Of a stretch of DNA of 56,783 bases, positions 26,254 to 34,693 are shown one piece after another. Both the position numbers and the translations under genes were made by a program. The notes under the pieces are model-generated. The model saw only the letters and a program-made list of their open reading frames with translations. It was not told the origin of the DNA and searched no databases. The DNA comes from Actinomycetota bacterium (GTDB lineage: Bacteria > Actinomycetota > Acidimicrobiia > Acidimicrobiales > Ilumatobacteraceae), in assembly GCA_016870865.1 (NCBI GenBank), contig VGAC01000010.1, forward strand, positions 1 through 56,783, given 5' to 3'. The first letter of the stretch is position 1. The number at the start of each line of letters is the position of its first letter.

Positions 26254-27645
26254 TCAGTCGGCTGCGGACGCAGGGCGTGTGGTGGCAGGCAGCAACGCGC
26301 CGGTGTCTCGTTCACGAATTACCGTCTTCCACACGCCGGTTCCGTAAGTGGCGTCGTCGATGATTCGCAGAATGGTGAATCTCACGGGGTCCAGACGTGG
26401 CCGCTTCTCCCACCATTCAGCCAGTGCCGGAACGAGGGCTGCGGAGCACAGGACGACACGTGCACGACGTGAGAAGATCGCTGCTACTACGGCAATCGGC
26501 CACCAGGCACGCGTGATCGCCGACGCGAAGTTGCGGCCGACGTGCAGGTGGGTCATCCCTGCGAGGCGCGCGGACTCGGCAGCATTGTTGGGTACGAAGT
26601 GGAGTTTGCGTGACAGCATCACGGCGGTTGTGACGGCGGCACATCCCGCGATGAAAGGTGCCCCGAGTGCGAGGGCGACCCAGGACGATACCGACGTCAA
26701 TGATCCACGTGCGGGCGCCACCTTGTCTCCGTGACTGCGGCGGAGTGCGGTGGTGGACTCGCCGTAGCCCATGCGCTGGAGCGCGAAGGCGGCGAGTGTA
26801 GACCGGCGTTGGTGGAGTACTTCGATGGACGGTTCGTACCGGCAACGGAATCCCGATGCGTCGAGACGCCAAACAAGATCGACGTCTTCGCCCGTACGCA
26901 TCGCTTCGTTGAAACCTGCGACCGAGCGAATCGCCGCGACCTCACAGAGCATCACCGCAGCGGGTAACCAGCCGACGCGGGTGGCGGCGCGCACGCGGGC
27001 AGGACGATCGCCCATGTCGAGCGGCGAGCGTGCTGCTTCATAGGCACCGAGAACCGAACCGTCGTCTTTGGTGCGGACTCGCGGGCCGATGACCACCGCG
27101 TCCGAGGCGACCAACCATGCAGCAAGTGCCACGACGTCGTCGACGCAACAGTCGACGTCGGCATCGATGAAAACGACATGGCTTGTTTCGACCCGTGCCA
27201 GGCCGGTGTTGCGCGCCGCTGCCGGCCCACCGTTGGATTCGCGGCGGATCGTCGTGACAGGTGTGGCCCCCGCCGAGAACGCGGGCAGGGGCCGGGGTGA
27301 GGCGTCGTCGACGATGATTACGCCTGCGAGACCGTCGAGTTTGCCGACGAGTGTCGCCAACGAGGTTCCGTTGGATGTGTCGGTGAGATGCACCGGGATG
27401 ACGGCCGTGATGTGTGCCGCGTCGGCGGTGTGCTCAGGCGAATCGGCCAGCGGGTGGATGGCACCCGCATCGATGAGTCGGTCGACGAGCGCGCGGGCCG
27501 ATGGGGGAATTTCTCCTCCGCGCTCGATCATTTCTGCGATGCGTCGTCCGCCTTCGGTGAGGCGGAACGCACGCGTGGGCGAACCGCCGATGACCACCGC
27601 GCCCTCGTGGGGCCGCCGCCAGGTTCGGTCAACGCTGAAGCGCAT
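26254..27645 (-). CDS. mftF: Mycofactocin glycosyltransferase MftF
   Basis: 463 residues. N-terminal PqqD-like region (FRLTEGGRRIAEMI), then a GT2 domain: ITAVIPVHL, IIVDDASPRPLP, NGGPAAARNTGLA, VFIDADVD (DxD metal site) and GEDVDLVWRL. Two to three hydrophobic segments and a helical tail follow. Length and order match MftF, which adds a beta-1,4-glucose chain to mycofactocin. ATG at 27645; a longer frame is a shadow. It is separated from mftC by plsY and dedA, which is unusual. Confidence 0.9.
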   Translation of the reverse strand: MRFSVDRTWRRPHEGAVVIGGSPTRAFRLTEGGRRIAEMIERGGEIPPSARALVDRLIDAGAIHPLADSPEHTADAAHITAVIPVHLTDTSNGTSLATLVGKLDGLAGVIIVDDASPRPLPAFSAGATPVTTIRRESNGGPAAARNTGLARVETSHVVFIDADVDCCVDDVVALAAWLVASDAVVIGPRVRTKDDGSVLGAYEAARSPLDMGDRPARVRAATRVGWLPAAVMLCEVAAIRSVAGFNEAMRTGEDVDLVWRLDASGFRCRYEPSIEVLHQRRSTLAAFALQRMGYGESTTALRRSHGDKVAPARGSLTSVSSWVALALGAPFIAGCAAVTTAVMLSRKLHFVPNNAAESARLAGMTHLHVGRNFASAITRAWWPIAVVAAIFSRRARVVLCSAALVPALAEWWEKRPRLDPVRFTILRIIDDATYGTGVWKTVIRERDTGALLPATTRPASAAD

Positions 27646-27673
27646 GGCACATTCTGTCGCGGATGACGATGTT

Positions 27674-28282
27674 TCAGGCGCGCCGTTTGCGGAGGTGCCG
27701 CACGACCTCGATGAGAACCGTGATCGAGATCGCGGTGGTGAAGGCGACGACGAATGCGAGGGTGTGGTTGTCCTCGAAGGTCTTGCCACCGATGTAACCC
27801 AGGAGTGCCGCATAGGAGGCCCAGATGACGGCCGCGGCACCGACCCATTTTGTGAACCATCGATGGGGCTGACCGGTGATGCCGCACGACAGTGTCAGGA
27901 GCGTGCGTCCGCCGGGAATGAATCGTGCCGTGATGAGGAGCAGCCCTCCCCGCTCTTCGATTTGTTCGTCGGCCCACGCGAGTCGTCTGGCGCGTTTTTC
28001 GCTGCGTGAGTACCAACGCGTCACGGATTCCTTCGCCCGCAGGCCGATCTCGAAGGACATGTTGTCGCCGATGAACGCGCCGGCGGCACCGACTGCGATG
28101 ACGCCAGCGATGTTGAGATCGCCCAGCCCGGCTGTCACACCTCCGATGATCACCATGGTTTCACTGGGCACGATGGGGACCACCGAGTCGAGTACCGCGA
28201 TGATGAAAATCACGAAATAAAAGAGGGGTGAATCGGAGAGATCGCGCAGACCGTCGAAAACACCCGCCAGCGCCGCCGCCAC
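27674..28282 (-). CDS. DedA family membrane protein
   Basis: 202 residues. Motifs: VVPIVPSETMVIIGG, GAFIGDNMSFEIG and RFIPGGRTLLTLSCGI, the conserved Arg/Gly stretch of DedA/VTT proteins, plus four to five hydrophobic helices. Members are linked to lipid scrambling (undecaprenyl-phosphate or phosphatidylethanolamine recycling). GTG at 28282 starts 1 base after the plsY stop, so translation is coupled. Confidence 0.88.
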   Translation of the reverse strand: MAAALAGVFDGLRDLSDSPLFYFVIFIIAVLDSVVPIVPSETMVIIGGVTAGLGDLNIAGVIAVGAAGAFIGDNMSFEIGLRAKESVTRWYSRSEKRARRLAWADEQIEERGGLLLITARFIPGGRTLLTLSCGITGQPHRWFTKWVGAAAVIWASYAALLGYIGGKTFEDNHTLAFVVAFTTAISITVLIEVVRHLRKRRA

Positions 28283-28927: not shown

Positions 28928-30049
28928 TCAGACACGGATCGGTTTGCGCGTGAGGCTCACCGGTCGCGAGTGGTTGCTCGTTGTTCGCGGTGTGTTTGGT
29001 GTGTTTGCCATCAGCAATTCTCCGCCGTGTCCCCTGACGCACTCGGGGTCGGGGCCATCGAGGGGCAGTCCCGTGAAGAACTTCGCGGCCATGCAGCCGC
29101 CTTGGCAGGCGTCGTAACTGCCGCACGATGCGCATGCACCAACAGATTCGGGTTCGCGCAACGAGGTGAAGAGCGCACTTTCGCGCCACACCTTCGTGAA
29201 ACCACCCCGGTCGAGAATGCTGCCTGCACGGAATTCGTCGTGCAGGACGAACGGACACGCATAGACGTCACCGAGCGGATCGATCAGGCACACGACCCGT
29301 CCTGCACCGCACAGGTTGAGGCCGGGCAGCGGCGGGCCGAGAGCATTCAAGTGAAAGAAGGAGTCTCCGGTGAGAACGTTTTCGCCGTGTGCCGTGAGCC
29401 AGCGATAGATGTCGACTTGTTGTTCGGCAGTGGGGTGGAGCTCGTGCCACGTGTCGGCCCCGCGCCCGGCCGGACGCAGGCGCGTGATCCGCAGTTGTGC
29501 GCCGTAGGAGTCGGCAAGGGTCTTGAAGTCGTCGAGTTGTGCGACGTTGTGGCGGGTGACGACGACCGAGATCTTGAACGGACCGAACTTTGTACGCGCC
29601 AGGTTGTCCATGGCGGCGATCGCGGTGTCGAAGGATCCGGTGCCACGAACGGCATCGTTGGTGGCCCTGTCAGTGCCGTCGAGACTGATCTGAATGTCGA
29701 GATAGTCCATCGCCGCGAGTCGCTTCGCGTTTTCGGCGTCGATGTATGCACCATTCGTCGAGAACTTCACACCGATCGAGTTGTCGACGGCATGGGTGAT
29801 GATGTCGAAGAAGTCGCGACGGATCATCGGCTCGCCGCCGCCGATGTTGATGTAGAAGACCTGCAGGTCGTGGAGTTCGTCGATGACGTCCTTGGCCTGT
29901 GCGGTTGTCAGCTCCCTCGGGTCGCGCTGGCCACTGCTCGACAGGCAGTGGATGCACTGCAGATTGCAGGCATAGGTCAGCTCCCACGTCAGACAGATTG
30001 GTGCGTCGAGTCCGCGCTTCATTTGCGAGACGAGAGAGTCAGTCGACAC
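28928..30049 (-). CDS. mftC: Mycofactocin radical SAM maturase MftC
   Basis: 373 residues. Radical SAM cluster C28-x3-C32-x2-C35 in YACNLQCIHC, followed by INIGGGEPMIRRDF. C-terminal SPASM cysteines include CGAGRVVCLIDP, CASCGSYDACQGGC and PDPEC. MftC decarboxylates the C-terminal Tyr of MftA and then forms the Val-Tyr lactam. GTG at 30049 is chosen because DSLVSQMKRGLDAP parallels the known MftC N-terminus; it overlaps the mftB end by 11 bases. ATG 30022 is the alternative. Confidence 0.96.
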   Translation of the reverse strand: MSTDSLVSQMKRGLDAPICLTWELTYACNLQCIHCLSSSGQRDPRELTTAQAKDVIDELHDLQVFYINIGGGEPMIRRDFFDIITHAVDNSIGVKFSTNGAYIDAENAKRLAAMDYLDIQISLDGTDRATNDAVRGTGSFDTAIAAMDNLARTKFGPFKISVVVTRHNVAQLDDFKTLADSYGAQLRITRLRPAGRGADTWHELHPTAEQQVDIYRWLTAHGENVLTGDSFFHLNALGPPLPGLNLCGAGRVVCLIDPLGDVYACPFVLHDEFRAGSILDRGGFTKVWRESALFTSLREPESVGACASCGSYDACQGGCMAAKFFTGLPLDGPDPECVRGHGGELLMANTPNTPRTTSNHSRPVSLTRKPIRV

Positions 30050-30305
30050 GAATGATCTCTGATTTCGTGAGGCTGTCGAGAGCGAGAAGAAACGAGGCAC
30101 GGCGCTCAGCTGCGATGCCGCAGGCATCGAGAGTTGCACCGACCGTGGGGTGGTTGCCGAGGCTCTTGACGACGGAGACGACGTCGGGATGCTTCAGGAA
30201 CACGAGGCGGCGGTTGCCGTAGTGGTAGGCGAGGGCTCCGAAAGGCTCGGGTCGCAATGCAACCTGTGGCGACAGACTGGCGCTGGACTCGAGTGTCAGA
30301 GGCAT
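30039..30305 (-). CDS. mftB: Mycofactocin precursor-binding chaperone MftB
   Basis: 88 residues. The stretch LSPQVALRPEPFGALAYHYG then RRLVFLKHP matches MftB, a PqqD-like RiPP recognition element that holds the MftA leader and delivers it to MftC. The ATG at 30305 has a GTG immediately before it; a longer frame runs into mftA and is rejected. It lies 28 bases after mftA and overlaps mftC. Confidence 0.93.
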   Translation of the reverse strand: MPLTLESSASLSPQVALRPEPFGALAYHYGNRRLVFLKHPDVVSVVKSLGNHPTVGATLDACGIAAERRASFLLALDSLTKSEIIRVD

Positions 30306-30333: not shown

Positions 30334-30474
30334 TCAGTAGACGCCGCACATGCCGTCGATGGAGATTTCCTCAACGAGCAACTCTTCATACACGATCGAC
30401 TCGCCTGCGATGTCGTACTCGAGGGGCAAGGTCTCGGAAGCCTCGAGGACGGCGGAGTTTGGATCCGGTGTCAT
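30334..30474 (-). CDS. mftA: Mycofactocin precursor peptide MftA
   Basis: 46 residues: MTPDPNSAVLEASETL at the start, an acidic leader (YEELLVEEI) and the invariant core SIDGMCGVY at the end. The last two residues, V45 and Y46, become mycofactocin after MftC, MftE and MftD processing. The gene is too short for standard ORF cut-offs. A TACGCT box lies exactly 6 bases upstream of the ATG, so a leaderless mRNA is likely. First gene of the minus-strand cluster, divergent from the alcohol dehydrogenases. Confidence 0.97.
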   Translation of the reverse strand: MTPDPNSAVLEASETLPLEYDIAGESIVYEELLVEEISIDGMCGVY

Positions 30475-30567: not shown

Positions 30568-31680
30568 GTGAAGACAAAAGCCGCAATCCTGTGGGAACTC
30601 AACAAGCCATGGTCGGTGGAAGAAATCGACCTCGACCCGCCCGGCCCCGGCGAGGTGCTGGTGAACATGGTCGCTTCAGGCATGTGCCACAGCGACGAGC
30701 ATCTCGTCACCGGTGACCTGCCTTTTGCACTTCCGATCATCGGTGGCCACGAAGGCGCGGGTGTCGTCGCGCAGGTGGGCGAGGGCGTCAGTTGGCTTGC
30801 ACCCGGCGACCATGTCGTGTTCGGTTTCATCCCCTCGTGTGGGCGTTGCCCAAGTTGCAGCACCGGCCATTCCAACCTCTGCGACCTCGGTGCCTATCTC
30901 GGTACCGGCCGCCAGATCACCGACCAGACCGCTCGTCACCATGCCCAGGGCCAGGATGTCGGCATCATGTGCCTTCTGGGCACTTTCGCGCACCACACGG
31001 TCGTCAACGAAGCCTCTTGCATCAAGATAGAAAAGGACGTGCCGCTCGACAAGGCGTGTCTGCTGGGTTGTGGTGTCGTCACCGGTTGGGGAAGCAGTGT
31101 CTATGCGGCCGATGTGCAGCCGGGTGACACGGTGTGCGTCGTTGGCATTGGTGGCATCGGTGCCAACGCGGTGCAGGGCGCAAAGTTGGCCGGCGCCAAG
31201 CGTGTCATCGCCATCGACCCGGTCGAGTTCAAGCGTGAAAAGGCGATGCAATTCGGCGCGACACACACGGCTTCATCGATGACCGAAGCCGCCGATCTCG
31301 TGCGTGACATCACGTGGGGGACGATGGCGAACAAGGTCATCATGACGATGGGTGTCGGTAGCGGGGCGGTGATCGGCGAGGCACTTGCTCTCACGGCGAA
31401 GCGTGGGCGCGTGGTCGTGACCAACATTCACCCTGCGCTGGAGTTCAGCGCGAACATGAGTTTGCTCGACCTCACGTTGATGGAAAAGCAGGTTGTCGGT
31501 TCGCTGTTCGGTTCGGGCAACCCGCGTGCCGACATTCCGAAGTTGCTGGGTCTGTACCGCGAGGGACAACTCGATCTCGATGGCCTGGTGACGAAGACCT
31601 ATTCACTCGACGGTGTGAATGACGGCTACGACGACATGCGCAGCGGTAAGAACATCCGCGGTGTGCTCGTCTACAACTGA
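30568..31680 (+). CDS. Mycofactocin-type (NDMA-dependent) alcohol dehydrogenase, copy 1
   Basis: 370 residues, zinc-dependent medium-chain dehydrogenase. Catalytic zinc ligands in GMCHSDEH, GGHEGAG and LLGCGVVTGWG; structural zinc cysteines in CGRCPSCSTGHSNLC; NAD-binding VGIGGIGANAVQGAKLAG. Sequence style and neighbours fit the Rxyl_3153-type family that keeps NAD bound and needs mycofactocin (or NDMA in vitro) to re-oxidise it. Oxidises an alcohol to an aldehyde; range unknown. GTG at 30568 with GAGGGG upstream; longer frames read through the mftA region. Confidence 0.93.
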   Translation: MKTKAAILWELNKPWSVEEIDLDPPGPGEVLVNMVASGMCHSDEHLVTGDLPFALPIIGGHEGAGVVAQVGEGVSWLAPGDHVVFGFIPSCGRCPSCSTGHSNLCDLGAYLGTGRQITDQTARHHAQGQDVGIMCLLGTFAHHTVVNEASCIKIEKDVPLDKACLLGCGVVTGWGSSVYAADVQPGDTVCVVGIGGIGANAVQGAKLAGAKRVIAIDPVEFKREKAMQFGATHTASSMTEAADLVRDITWGTMANKVIMTMGVGSGAVIGEALALTAKRGRVVVTNIHPALEFSANMSLLDLTLMEKQVVGSLFGSGNPRADIPKLLGLYREGQLDLDGLVTKTYSLDGVNDGYDDMRSGKNIRGVLVYN

Positions 31681-31717
31681 TCGCAAGACGAACGAAGAAC
31701 GGATCACTGGGGGAAAC

Positions 31718-32869
31718 ATGAAGACGAAGGCAGCGGTCATCCACGGGCTCCACCAGGACTGGAGTGTCGACGACATCGAGGTGCACGCACCCAAGGCGGG
31801 TGAGGTTCTCGTGCACTGGAAGGTTGCAGGTCTTTGCCACAGCGACGAACACCTCGTCACCGGCGACATGGTGCCGCCCCAGGAAATGCTCGACATGATG
31901 GGCCTCGAGTCGATGTTTCCGATGGTCGGCGGCCACGAGGGCGCGGGTGTGATCCTCGACGTTGGTCCGGGCATCACTTCGGTCAAGAAGGGTGATCATG
32001 TGTCGGCTTCCTTCATTCCCTCCTGTGGGCGCTGCCGTTACTGCAGCACCGGCCGGCAGAATCTCTGCGACCTCGGTGCGGGCGCGATGATCCCCGGCAT
32101 GATCACCGACGGAACGCACCGTCACTTTCTCACGAACGGAACGCCGGTCGGCATGATGGCCAAGGTGGGTACGTTCTCCGAGGTTGCGTGCGTCGCCGAA
32201 GCATCGGTCATCAAGGTCGACCCCGACCTGCCGCTCGAGTCGGTTGCCCTGGTGTCATGCGGGGTCGCGACCGGCTGGGGTTCGGCGACGAACCGCGCCG
32301 ACGTGCAGCCCGGTGACACGGTGGTGGTCGTCGGCATCGGCGGCATCGGCATCAACGCTGTGCAGGGTGCAAAGATGGCGGGCGCCAAGCGTGTCATCGC
32401 TGTCGACCCCGTCGAGTTCAAGCGGGAAAAGGCGATGGAGATGGGGGCCACCCACACGTTTTCCTCGATGGAAGAAGCAATGGCACCCGTCATGGAGATG
32501 ACATGGGGACAAATGGCCGATCGTGTCATCATGACCCCGGGTGTTTTGTACGGAGAGATGATGGAGATGGCCCAGAACCTGACGGGCAAAGGTGGCACGA
32601 TGGTCGTCACCGCAATCTCACCGATGACGAGTGGTACCGCCAGCATCAACCTGTTCAACCTTGCGATGTTCAACAAGGAAGTGAAGGGCACCATCTTCGG
32701 TAGCCTGAATCCTCGCGCTGACATCCCCAGGCTGCTCGGCATGTACCGCGATGGCCAGTTGAAGCTCGACGAATTGATCACGAAGCGCTATCAGTTGTCG
32801 CAGATCAATGAGGGCTACCGCGCCATGCGGGACGGCGAGAACATCCGCGGCGTCATCATCAATGACTGA
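31718..32869 (+). CDS. Mycofactocin-type (NDMA-dependent) alcohol dehydrogenase, copy 2
   Basis: 383 residues, tandem paralogue of the preceding gene. Same zinc ligands (GLCHSDEH, GGHEGAG, LVSCGVATGWGS), structural CGRCRYCSTGRQNLC and VGIGGIGINAVQGAKMAG. It differs by a Met-rich insert (VPPQEMLDMMGLESMFPM) in the substrate region, so specificity probably differs. ATG at 31718 with GGGGGAAAC upstream. Its last 8 bases overlap the MoxR gene start (ATGACTGA), coupling the two. Confidence 0.94.
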   Translation: MKTKAAVIHGLHQDWSVDDIEVHAPKAGEVLVHWKVAGLCHSDEHLVTGDMVPPQEMLDMMGLESMFPMVGGHEGAGVILDVGPGITSVKKGDHVSASFIPSCGRCRYCSTGRQNLCDLGAGAMIPGMITDGTHRHFLTNGTPVGMMAKVGTFSEVACVAEASVIKVDPDLPLESVALVSCGVATGWGSATNRADVQPGDTVVVVGIGGIGINAVQGAKMAGAKRVIAVDPVEFKREKAMEMGATHTFSSMEEAMAPVMEMTWGQMADRVIMTPGVLYGEMMEMAQNLTGKGGTMVVTAISPMTSGTASINLFNLAMFNKEVKGTIFGSLNPRADIPRLLGMYRDGQLKLDELITKRYQLSQINEGYRAMRDGENIRGVIIND

Positions 32870-33773
32870 CGTACTTGCGCGCGTCAGGCGCGAGATCGTC
32901 GGCCGTGCCCGCGAACTCGAAATAGTTCTCGCCGCACTCGATGCCGACCGGCACATCGTGCTCGAGGGCCCACCGGGGACCGGCAAGTCGACGCTTCTGC
33001 GCGCGGTTGCCGACGCACTCGGCGTGGGGTTCGAATTCGTCGAGGGCAATGCCGAATTGACGCCGGCGAGGCTGGTCGGTGCGTTCGACCCGGCACGGGT
33101 GTTGAACGAGGGATACGTCGCCGATGCATTCATGGATGGACCACTCATTGCGGCGATGCGTGAGGGGTCGTTGCTCTACGTCGAGGAAATCAACCGTGTG
33201 CCCGAGGAAACGCTGAACGTCCTCATCACCGTGATGAGCGAGGGGGATCTCAGCGTGCCGCGACTCGGACGCATCGCGACAACGTCGGGTTTCCGGCTGG
33301 TTGCGGCGATGAATCCGTTCGACTCGGTCGGCACGGCGCGAATCTCAGGTGCGATCTACGACCGCATGTGCCGCCTTGCCGTCGGCTACCAGTCGCTCGA
33401 AGATGAGGTGGCGATCGTGGCGCGCAACGTGGAGGGTGTCGATGTCGGATGGATCGAGGGTGTGGTGCACGTCGTGCGTGCGACGCGTGAGCATTCCGAT
33501 CTGCGCACGGGTTCTTCGGTGAGGGGCGCCATCGACACCGCCCTCGTTGCGCGATCCCTCGGTGCGCTGCGTGGCAAGTCGCCCACGACGTCGAGTGTTG
33601 CGCGCGATGCGGCACTCACCGCCCTCGGTGGTCGGGTGCGGTTGCGCGAGGGCGTGTCACGTTCGACCGAAGACGTCATCATGGAAATTTGGGACTCGGT
33701 TTTCGCACCACAGAGGGATTCGGGTGAGCGGGGAAAAGGTGGAGCCCCGACAGGGGCCACGAACTCCCTCTGA
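32862..33773 (+). CDS. MoxR-type AAA+ ATPase
   Basis: 303 residues. Walker A GPPGTGKST (36-44), Walker B LLYVEEINR (104-112), sensor 1 in LVAAMNPFD and a C-terminal lid domain. MoxR-type ATPases work with VWA proteins as chaperones that insert metals or activate enzymes; the name comes from methanol dehydrogenase activation. The start overlaps the end of alcohol dehydrogenase copy 2 by 8 bases, and the VWA gene follows after 2 bases. The C-terminal tail (ERGKGGAPTG) looks disordered. Confidence 0.92.
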   Translation: MTDVLARVRREIVGRARELEIVLAALDADRHIVLEGPPGTGKSTLLRAVADALGVGFEFVEGNAELTPARLVGAFDPARVLNEGYVADAFMDGPLIAAMREGSLLYVEEINRVPEETLNVLITVMSEGDLSVPRLGRIATTSGFRLVAAMNPFDSVGTARISGAIYDRMCRLAVGYQSLEDEVAIVARNVEGVDVGWIEGVVHVVRATREHSDLRTGSSVRGAIDTALVARSLGALRGKSPTTSSVARDAALTALGGRVRLREGVSRSTEDVIMEIWDSVFAPQRDSGERGKGGAPTGATNSL

Positions 33774-33775
33774 TC

Positions 33776-34693
33776 ATGGAAGGTGCGGCCGCCGAAGCCG
33801 CGGAGAAAGAAGCGGGTCGCCGCACGAAGTCGCGCACCGAGTTGTCGCGGTACCCGAACTTCGAGCAGGTGTCACCGGAGGTGGGTGAACTCGACGAGGC
33901 GGCCCTCGACCGAGCAATGCGCGAGAACCCCGATGACACGTTGTCGATGGTCGCCGATCTCACTGCCGCGACGGATCCGAAACTGCGTGAGGCGGCAAAA
34001 CACATCGCGGCACGTTTGATGCTCGATCTGGCCGGAACGACGAAACGGCGGCGCAAGGGGATCGGGCGCATCGTCACTCAGCCTTTTCGTGGTGACGGAG
34101 ACATCGACATCGACACGAGCATCGAAGCCTTCGAGGGGAGTGGGGCGCGCAGACGCGTCAAAGTTGAGGAACTCCGCGTCAGATCCTGGTCGAAGCGTGA
34201 CACCGCCCTGTGTCTCGTCGTTGATCGCAGTGGTTCGATGGGGGGCAAGCCACTGGCAACTTCGGCACTTGCTGCCGCCGCAGTGTCGCTGCGCGAACCC
34301 GACGATTACAGCGTTCTCGCTTTCGGCCGCGAGGTGATCGTCGCCAAGTCGCAGGACATGCAAAGACCCGGGGTCGAGGTGGTCAATTCGTTGCTCAGCC
34401 TGCGTGGCTTCGGTACGACCGACCTCGCGGGTGCCTTGCGGGCTGCCGTTGAACAGCTTTCGAGATCACGTGCCACGCGCAAAGTGGTGGTGTTGCTGTC
34501 GGACTGTCGTGCGACTGAAACGGGAGATGTCGAGGCGGCCGCGCGCGCCGTGGACGAACTTTGCATCGTCGCACCAGAAGGTGACGATGCCGAGGCGCGG
34601 ACACTTGCCGCCAGCGTGGGAGCCCGTATCGCCACGGTGGCCGAGCCGACCGACGTGCCGGTCGCGCTCTGCGAGGTGCTCGACAGAAACTGA
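33776..34693 (+). CDS. VWA domain protein, MoxR partner
   Basis: 305 residues. The N-terminal ~140 residues are helical and basic (KRRRKGIGRIV). The C-terminal von Willebrand A domain has a MIDAS site: D150-R-S152-G-S154 in VVDRSGSMGG, a Thr in GFGTTDLAGAL and an Asp in LLSDCRATETGD. It resembles the C-terminal half of magnesium-chelatase BchD-type and CoxE/CbbO-like proteins. No membrane segment, so cytoplasmic. With MoxR it likely forms a remodelling complex; the target is inferred to be the adjacent dehydrogenase. Confidence 0.9.
   Translation: MEGAAAEAAEKEAGRRTKSRTELSRYPNFEQVSPEVGELDEAALDRAMRENPDDTLSMVADLTAATDPKLREAAKHIAARLMLDLAGTTKRRRKGIGRIVTQPFRGDGDIDIDTSIEAFEGSGARRRVKVEELRVRSWSKRDTALCLVVDRSGSMGGKPLATSALAAAAVSLREPDDYSVLAFGREVIVAKSQDMQRPGVEVVNSLLSLRGFGTTDLAGALRAAVEQLSRSRATRKVVVLLSDCRATETGDVEAAARAVDELCIVAPEGDDAEARTLAASVGARIATVAEPTDVPVALCEVLDRN

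Follow-up and report, generated by a model that had tools for sequence, protein, structure and literature searches.

What is a two-gene ATPase system doing directly behind an alcohol dehydrogenase gene in a mycofactocin locus? The question is raised by contig VGAC01000010.1 of an actinobacterial genome of the Ilumatobacteraceae (assembly GCA_016870865.1), of which a stretch of 56,783 nucleotides, here termed the window, was analysed. Within it, the gene for a MoxR-type AAA+ ATPase (NorQ/CbbQ-like; 32862..33773, + strand; AAA_5 90 bits, AAA_3 55 bits) is followed by that for a von Willebrand factor type A (VWA) partner (CoxE/NorD-like; 33776..34693, + strand; VWA_CoxE 44 bits) whose metal ion-dependent adhesion site (MIDAS) motif is intact. 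Directly 5' of MoxR lies ADH2 (31718..32869, + strand), the second of two alcohol dehydrogenases (ADHs) of family TIGR03989 at this locus (547 bits against a cut-off of 440). A first-pass annotation of this DNA had reported that ADH2 and MoxR share 8 bases and that VWA begins 2 bases after MoxR. The overlap of the MoxR start with the ADH2 stop was confirmed to the base (ATGACTGA, 32862-32869, + strand), as was the start of VWA at 33776, 2 bases past the MoxR end at 33773. The pair probably encodes a remodelling machine of two parts, driven by ATP and of the NorQD/CbbQO kind, which serves the mycofactocin system as an accessory; its likely client is the dehydrogenase encoded just before it.

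The order of these genes recurs and is not a peculiarity of this genome. The annotation had proposed that the conservation of a TIGR03989 gene followed by moxR-vwa be counted across the Acidimicrobiia, and this count was made in a class sample of 296 genomes; a phylum sample of 296 genomes was also used. Searching the class sample with the MoxR protein returned 46 copies at or above 261 bits in 44 genomes, followed by 13 copies at or below 83 bits. According to their coordinates, 37 of the 46 family copies lie directly behind a same-strand TIGR03989 gene, versus none of the 13 distant MoxR genes (three of the 46, G177, G256 and G246:C31, were judged from coordinates alone), and the same order is found in other actinobacteria. 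This arrangement is far beyond chance in the class sample. TIGR03989 genes were listed 105 times there, in 69 genomes, and all 44 MoxR genomes possess one. The mycofactocin maturase gene mftC is present in 43 of the 44, the one miss being G217 (Fisher p 4e-34, ignoring kinship). More specifically, mftC lies within 10 kb of 26 of the 46 copies and farther away on the same contig for 9, and the contig carries no mftC for the remaining 11. Because mftC is this close to only 26 copies, the dehydrogenase is the steadier neighbour, in a comparison blurred by contig breaks. In the phylum sample, mftC accompanies MoxR in 21 of 24 genomes; those without it are G454 (89% complete, carrying a TIGR03989 gene) and G325 and G336, whose MoxR copies are diverged. 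In a pattern-based scan of named genomes, relatives at or above 52% identity were actinobacterial records only among the matches listed, after which identity dropped to 34% or less.

The identity of the upstream gene is revealing of what the pair may serve. Taking one copy per locus and removing duplicates gave 105 non-redundant MoxR copies; the set leaves out L132-L152 and L154-L160 (at or below 34% identity), the duplicates L161-L173 and L175, rows that share the same residues 61-160, and any second copy of MoxR in one locus (e.g., G345 and G512). A mycofactocin-coupled dehydrogenase is found directly upstream of 89 of these copies, and belongs to TIGR03989, a family of zinc MDR enzymes, in 79, to TIGR04504 in 7 and to TIGR03971 in 3 (all E ≤ 1e-85), the latter two being families of short-chain dehydrogenases/reductases (SDRs). 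The ADH and SDR partner folds have no metal in common, and all are mycofactocin-coupled according to their family models. Nine class copies are unlinked to TIGR03989, and six of these, all with family code f3, follow a TIGR04504 SDR (five scores at 314-330 bits and that of G145 at 324, cut-off 250); in two of the f3 loci the gene for the mycofactocin-associated electron transfer flavoprotein beta subunit precedes the SDR. L047, L048 and L049 make up the rest of the nine. Further copies behind TIGR04504 (L098 and L109) and behind TIGR03971 (L129, L177 and L178; 392-437 bits, cut-off 300) come from the named genomes and the phylum sample. A quick tree of MoxR, with long branches, requires at least three switches of partner between ADH and SDR, the 16 copies whose upstream gene is a different one or absent being excluded from this count. 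Copies behind TIGR04504 group together, and the three behind TIGR03971 fall on two diverged branches near the base of the tree. Thus the proposed tie between the pair and a mycofactocin alcohol dehydrogenase recurs and is tight, and must be widened, since the neighbour can belong to another mycofactocin dehydrogenase family and many mycofactocin genomes are without the pair.

Some of these SDR-linked loci are unusual in other respects. L098 (CAMCTY010000005.1) stands in a record titled as a Bifidobacterium breve metagenome-assembled genome; it contains mft-like genes and its MoxR nests with family f3 of the window's order, and the species label is probably wrong. In G512 and G345 (L177, L178, L185 and L186), two tandem MoxR genes follow two SDR genes, the nearer of which is TIGR03971, and the second MoxR is fused to VWA.

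The spacing of these genes is tight. Among the 89 pairs, 82 were scored (7 gave no start), and the start nearest to the dehydrogenase stop was chosen, which favours short distances; with this rule the stop and the MoxR start are at most 30 bases apart in 62 of the 82, and 28 pairs overlap. The overlap is 8 bases long in 10 of the scored loci, as in the window, and 4 bases long in 13. MoxR and VWA are themselves joined in a single open reading frame (ORF) in at least 15 loci, including records of Leekyejoonella, Kribbia, Pseudonocardia and Modestobacter, and fusion of this kind argues well for their acting as one complex. On the MoxR tree 17 loci carry the fusion label, of which two are weak (L057 remains open where its contig ends, and the single ORF of L187 is not shown by the gene caller); the label changes five times, which is a soft count. 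Every one of the 50 loci L011-L060, a partly overlapping set, gave a VWA match.

Motifs and predicted folds point to the kind of machine involved. The window gene combines an AAA_5/AAA_3 domain with Walker A and B motifs and an adjacent VWA gene, and so belongs among the MoxR-type AAA+ ATPases. Across 28 sequences the MoxR Walker A motif GPPGTGKS is invariant or nearly so and YxEExNR is conserved, and across 62 sequences the MIDAS residues D150, S152, S154, T215 and D243 of VWA are invariant. A conserved MoxR C-terminal tail with the consensus GKxxAPxGA is also seen in many of the 28 relatives; it may serve for binding, or may have arisen as a side effect of the VWA ribosome site. Compared with solved structures, the MoxR profile matches midasin best (184 bits), then NorQ (69 bits), CbbQ and CobS. 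Predicted structures were single-chain models: in that of the fused relative L110 (mean predicted local distance difference test score, pLDDT, 86.8; predicted template modelling score 0.50) the AAA part best matches NorQ (E 2.8e-17), and the window VWA (pLDDT 94.5) is closest in Foldseek to NorD (E 2.4e-10), then to the MIDAS domain of Rea1/midasin. When the window VWA was aligned with VIA-align, many VWA domains tied at Z 14-15; NorD is one of these, its root-mean-square deviation being large (9.5). Membership of MoxR in the GvpN, MadB or CobS families was rejected, as its scores of 79, 60 and 22 bits are far below the respective cut-offs of 267, 475 and 559; the papers listed under the name MadB, which include work on a fungal protein for light sensing and on a dehydratase of lantibiotics, are by their titles not relevant.

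Among characterized systems, NorQ/NorD likewise unites an AAA+ MoxR protein with a VWA protein that keeps its MIDAS, and provides the top Foldseek matches for both halves. However, identity is only about 25% (NorQ) and 20% (NorD) or less, the window VWA has 305 residues against a NorD chain numbered to 638, and the partners here are dehydrogenases, some of a family needing no metal; no nitric oxide reductase was found among the scanned window neighbours. As described in the available part of PMC13036017, NorQD inserts iron into nitric oxide reductase, the VWA finger reaches into the pore of the AAA+ protein, and the proposed effect of ATP consumption is a twist of the VWA protein that opens the target. 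The Rubisco activase CbbQ/CbbO, matched in both fold and profile (CbbQ 6l1q and 5c3c), offers an example of how a folded enzyme can be freed of trapped ligands (PMC4660213, accessible portion), although the neighbours here are dehydrogenases rather than Rubisco. CoxD/CoxE, which matures CO dehydrogenase, resembles the pair through the match of the window VWA to the Pfam model VWA_CoxE, but no CO dehydrogenase is among the scanned window neighbours. RavA/ViaA also pairs MoxR with a VWA partner; the window VWA matches the ViaA model weakly, under its cut-off (27 bits against 500), and the neighbours are different. Midasin/Rea1, the best MoxR profile match and second VWA fold group, has AAA+ and MIDAS in one protein, but this is a very large eukaryotic protein (about 4,900 residues, several AAA modules) that acts in ribosome assembly. 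Within the mycofactocin system, MftG and mft_etfB are likewise accessories that occur patchily (the accessible text of PMC11778925 counts MftG in 234 of 311 genomes with mftC); by contrast, the element described here is an ATPase pair tied to a dehydrogenase gene and contains no redox protein.

The remainder of the window locus is that of a mycofactocin system. Upstream of ADH2 lies ADH1 (30568..31680, + strand, GTG start), a zinc alcohol dehydrogenase dependent on N,N-dimethyl-4-nitrosoaniline (NDMA) or mycofactocin (TIGR03989, Rxyl_3153; 568 bits against 440); the two are 55.6% identical. In genomes with family code f4 (e.g., L063 and L064), which mostly carry mftC and a TIGR03989 gene and no MoxR pair, most ADHs score lower on this model (about 444-495 bits), and one ADH each in G106 and G118 reaches 571-578. 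On the opposite strand, 93 bases from ADH1, is the divergent gene mftA (30334..30474, - strand) for the 46-residue mycofactocin precursor peptide. Its translation ends in IDGMCGVY, and the precursor motif is IDGXCGVY, as quoted in the available part of PMC5264612. Beyond it lie an 88-residue ORF between mftA and mftC that, by position only, is probably mftB (30039..30305, - strand), the radical SAM maturase gene mftC (28928..30049, - strand; TIGR03962 608 bits against 265) and the glycosyltransferase gene mftF (26254..27840, - strand; TIGR03965 332 bits against 280), the start codons of the latter two being uncertain. The two dehydrogenase genes, MoxR and VWA had been described as reading in one direction from a promoter facing mftA; the shared strand holds and a single transcript may cover all four, while for the shared promoter a sigma-70 consensus scan gave 0 matches (0.8 in shuffles), a result that says little in such a genome. 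The source genome (1.95 Mb, 42 contigs, 96% complete) contains a single MoxR at E ≤ 1e-20, no TIGR04504 gene at E ≤ 1e-50, and one SDR that, at 227 bits, is under the TIGR03971 cut-off of 300.

Several observations weigh against a general bond between the pair and mycofactocin dehydrogenases. MoxR is missing from 22 of 65 mftC genomes and 25 of 69 TIGR03989 genomes in the class sample, and at E ≤ 1e-45 the pair is missing from 15 of 36 mftC genomes in the phylum sample. All eight mftC genomes with family code f78 are without it, and since seven of these possess TIGR03989 genes, the enzymes evidently manage without the pair there. Because so many such genomes are without it, the pair is an accessory and no strict need of the enzyme family. 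The diverged copies of G325 and G336 occur in genomes with neither mftC nor TIGR03989. Sixteen of the 105 copies have no mycofactocin dehydrogenase directly upstream: six lie behind another gene (mftE in two cases, an SDR passing no mycofactocin model in three, and in one an acyltransferase, read from its sequence), and ten have no called gene close upstream, two of them near contig ends. In L047, one of the copies behind mftE, TIGR03989 and TIGR04504 genes are found downstream. The SDR preceding MoxR-VWA in L049, L103 and L104 might be an unmodelled mycofactocin SDR; L049 is also preceded by ABC transporter genes. At L048 (G123:C53, 1908-8801) a diverged second MoxR-VWA pair has genes for an ABC transporter ATPase and a protein of the Rv3169 family nearby, and the 14 kb locus yielded no called mycofactocin gene. 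Finally, TIGR04504 genes are often near mftC anyway, and 3 of 22 in 198 genomes precede MoxR by coordinates; the TIGR04504 cases are therefore firmer evidence for membership of the mycofactocin system than for a particular SDR client.

Which task the pair performs can be narrowed by weighing the alternatives. The first-pass annotation had suggested that it may load zinc or the tightly bound nicotinamide adenine dinucleotide (NAD), or may help mycofactocin to dock. Insertion of zinc into the dehydrogenase would resemble the loading of iron into nitric oxide reductase by NorQD, whose components are the best fold matches and insert metal (PMC13036017, available part). Both ADH1 and ADH2 also carry the catalytic and structural zinc motifs. 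SDR dehydrogenases as a family, however, need no metal, zinc included, and because 10 of the 105 pairs lie behind mycofactocin-coupled SDRs, zinc loading is disfavoured. A set of 132 ADHs (80 with the pair, 47 without, 5 tandem) argues in the same direction: the structural four-cysteine motif is present in all 132 regardless of the pair, and all four zinc patterns pass in 64 of the 80, 31 of the 47 and 4 of the 5, while those that do not pass, whether with or without the pair, miss a strict pattern. With the TIGR03989 genomes that are without MoxR also counting against it, zinc insertion as the common job was set back and is quite improbable. A MoxR-dependent sub-clade of ADHs was likewise rejected. 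On a quick tree of the 132 sequences, also with long branches, linked and free ADHs are mixed, with 22 label changes, 14 of them forced by well-supported branches, against a shuffled mean of 41, kinship being ignored and the free ADHs hand-picked, not random; being interleaved, they indicate that linkage marks no single enzyme type. Loading of the first NAD into freshly made dehydrogenase has in its favour that nicotinoprotein ADHs hold NAD non-exchangeably. Escherichia coli is not known to possess a member of this MoxR family. The accessible text of PMC5264612 reports for TIGR03971 a buried NAD with no exchange seen by nuclear magnetic resonance, its release as NADH needing a large conformational change, but also that nine of ten mycobacterial TIGR03971 SDRs made in E. 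coli held NAD in the crystal. Because these related SDRs took up NAD in that host, the suggestion of first NAD loading is disfavoured and appears improbable.

It is also unlikely that the pair serves mycofactocin biosynthesis, for example the maturation of MftC, MftD or another Mft protein, instead of the dehydrogenases. The near-universal presence of mftC in MoxR genomes of the class sample fits such a role, as does the position of the pair inside mft operons (SDR2-MoxR-VWA-mftE-mftF in L044 and L109, etfB-mftE-MoxR-VWA in L047). Against it, MoxR is missing from the mftC genomes counted above in both samples, and mftC is off the contig or more than 10 kb away for the 11 and 9 class copies already mentioned, while most copies directly follow TIGR03989. 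That the pair is only a passenger in a favourable operon and has some other target would accord with L048, L106, L111, L122, L127, L183 and L184, where no adjacent mycofactocin dehydrogenase or mft gene was called, and with the unmodelled SDRs of L049, L103 and L104; set against the mycofactocin-coupled dehydrogenases of three families that precede 89 of the 105 copies, in many genera, this lack of a functional link is highly improbable.

The reading of the pair as a remodelling machine for the adjacent dehydrogenase thus leads to the step at which it might act. In mycofactocin dehydrogenases the NAD used for alcohol oxidation is permanently bound. By analogy with NorQD, MoxR would form a hexamer that turns a VWA finger inside its pore, and the VWA protein would grip the dehydrogenase meanwhile, so that the folded enzyme is opened briefly. 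The target would be a feature common to the zinc-type and short-chain partners, namely the non-exchangeable NAD that mycofactocin re-oxidises in place. Since first NAD loading needs no pair in TIGR03971, a later service remains, in which dead-end or damaged NAD(H) would be ejected or the site opened for mycofactocin docking. It is tentatively proposed, as a possibility only, that the pair is dedicated to the ATP-driven reactivation, or cofactor editing, of enzymes of two unrelated folds that hold NAD for life, ejecting damaged or dead-end NAD(H) or admitting mycofactocin. Weighing against this proposal, the evidence for non-exchangeable NAD covers TIGR03971 alone among the three dehydrogenase families.

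No description of a MoxR-VWA pair with mycofactocin or NDMA-dependent dehydrogenases was found among the papers listed in searches of the open-access literature. The main text of PMC3023750, which built TIGR03989, contains no ATPase, chaperone, VWA or AAA, and the accessible part of PMC5264612 makes no mention of MoxR or an ATPase. The machine is of a known kind, and its client class appears to be new. A conserved AAA+/VWA pair in many actinobacteria is a concrete and testable candidate for the building, repair or carrier coupling of mycofactocin dehydrogenases. If this is true, the clients of MoxR-VWA systems would widen from metal enzymes and Rubisco to nicotinoproteins, and a reactivase of this kind would be the nicotinamide counterpart of Rubisco activase. 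Adding the pair might then also aid the production of such enzymes in other hosts for the oxidation of alcohols and glycols.

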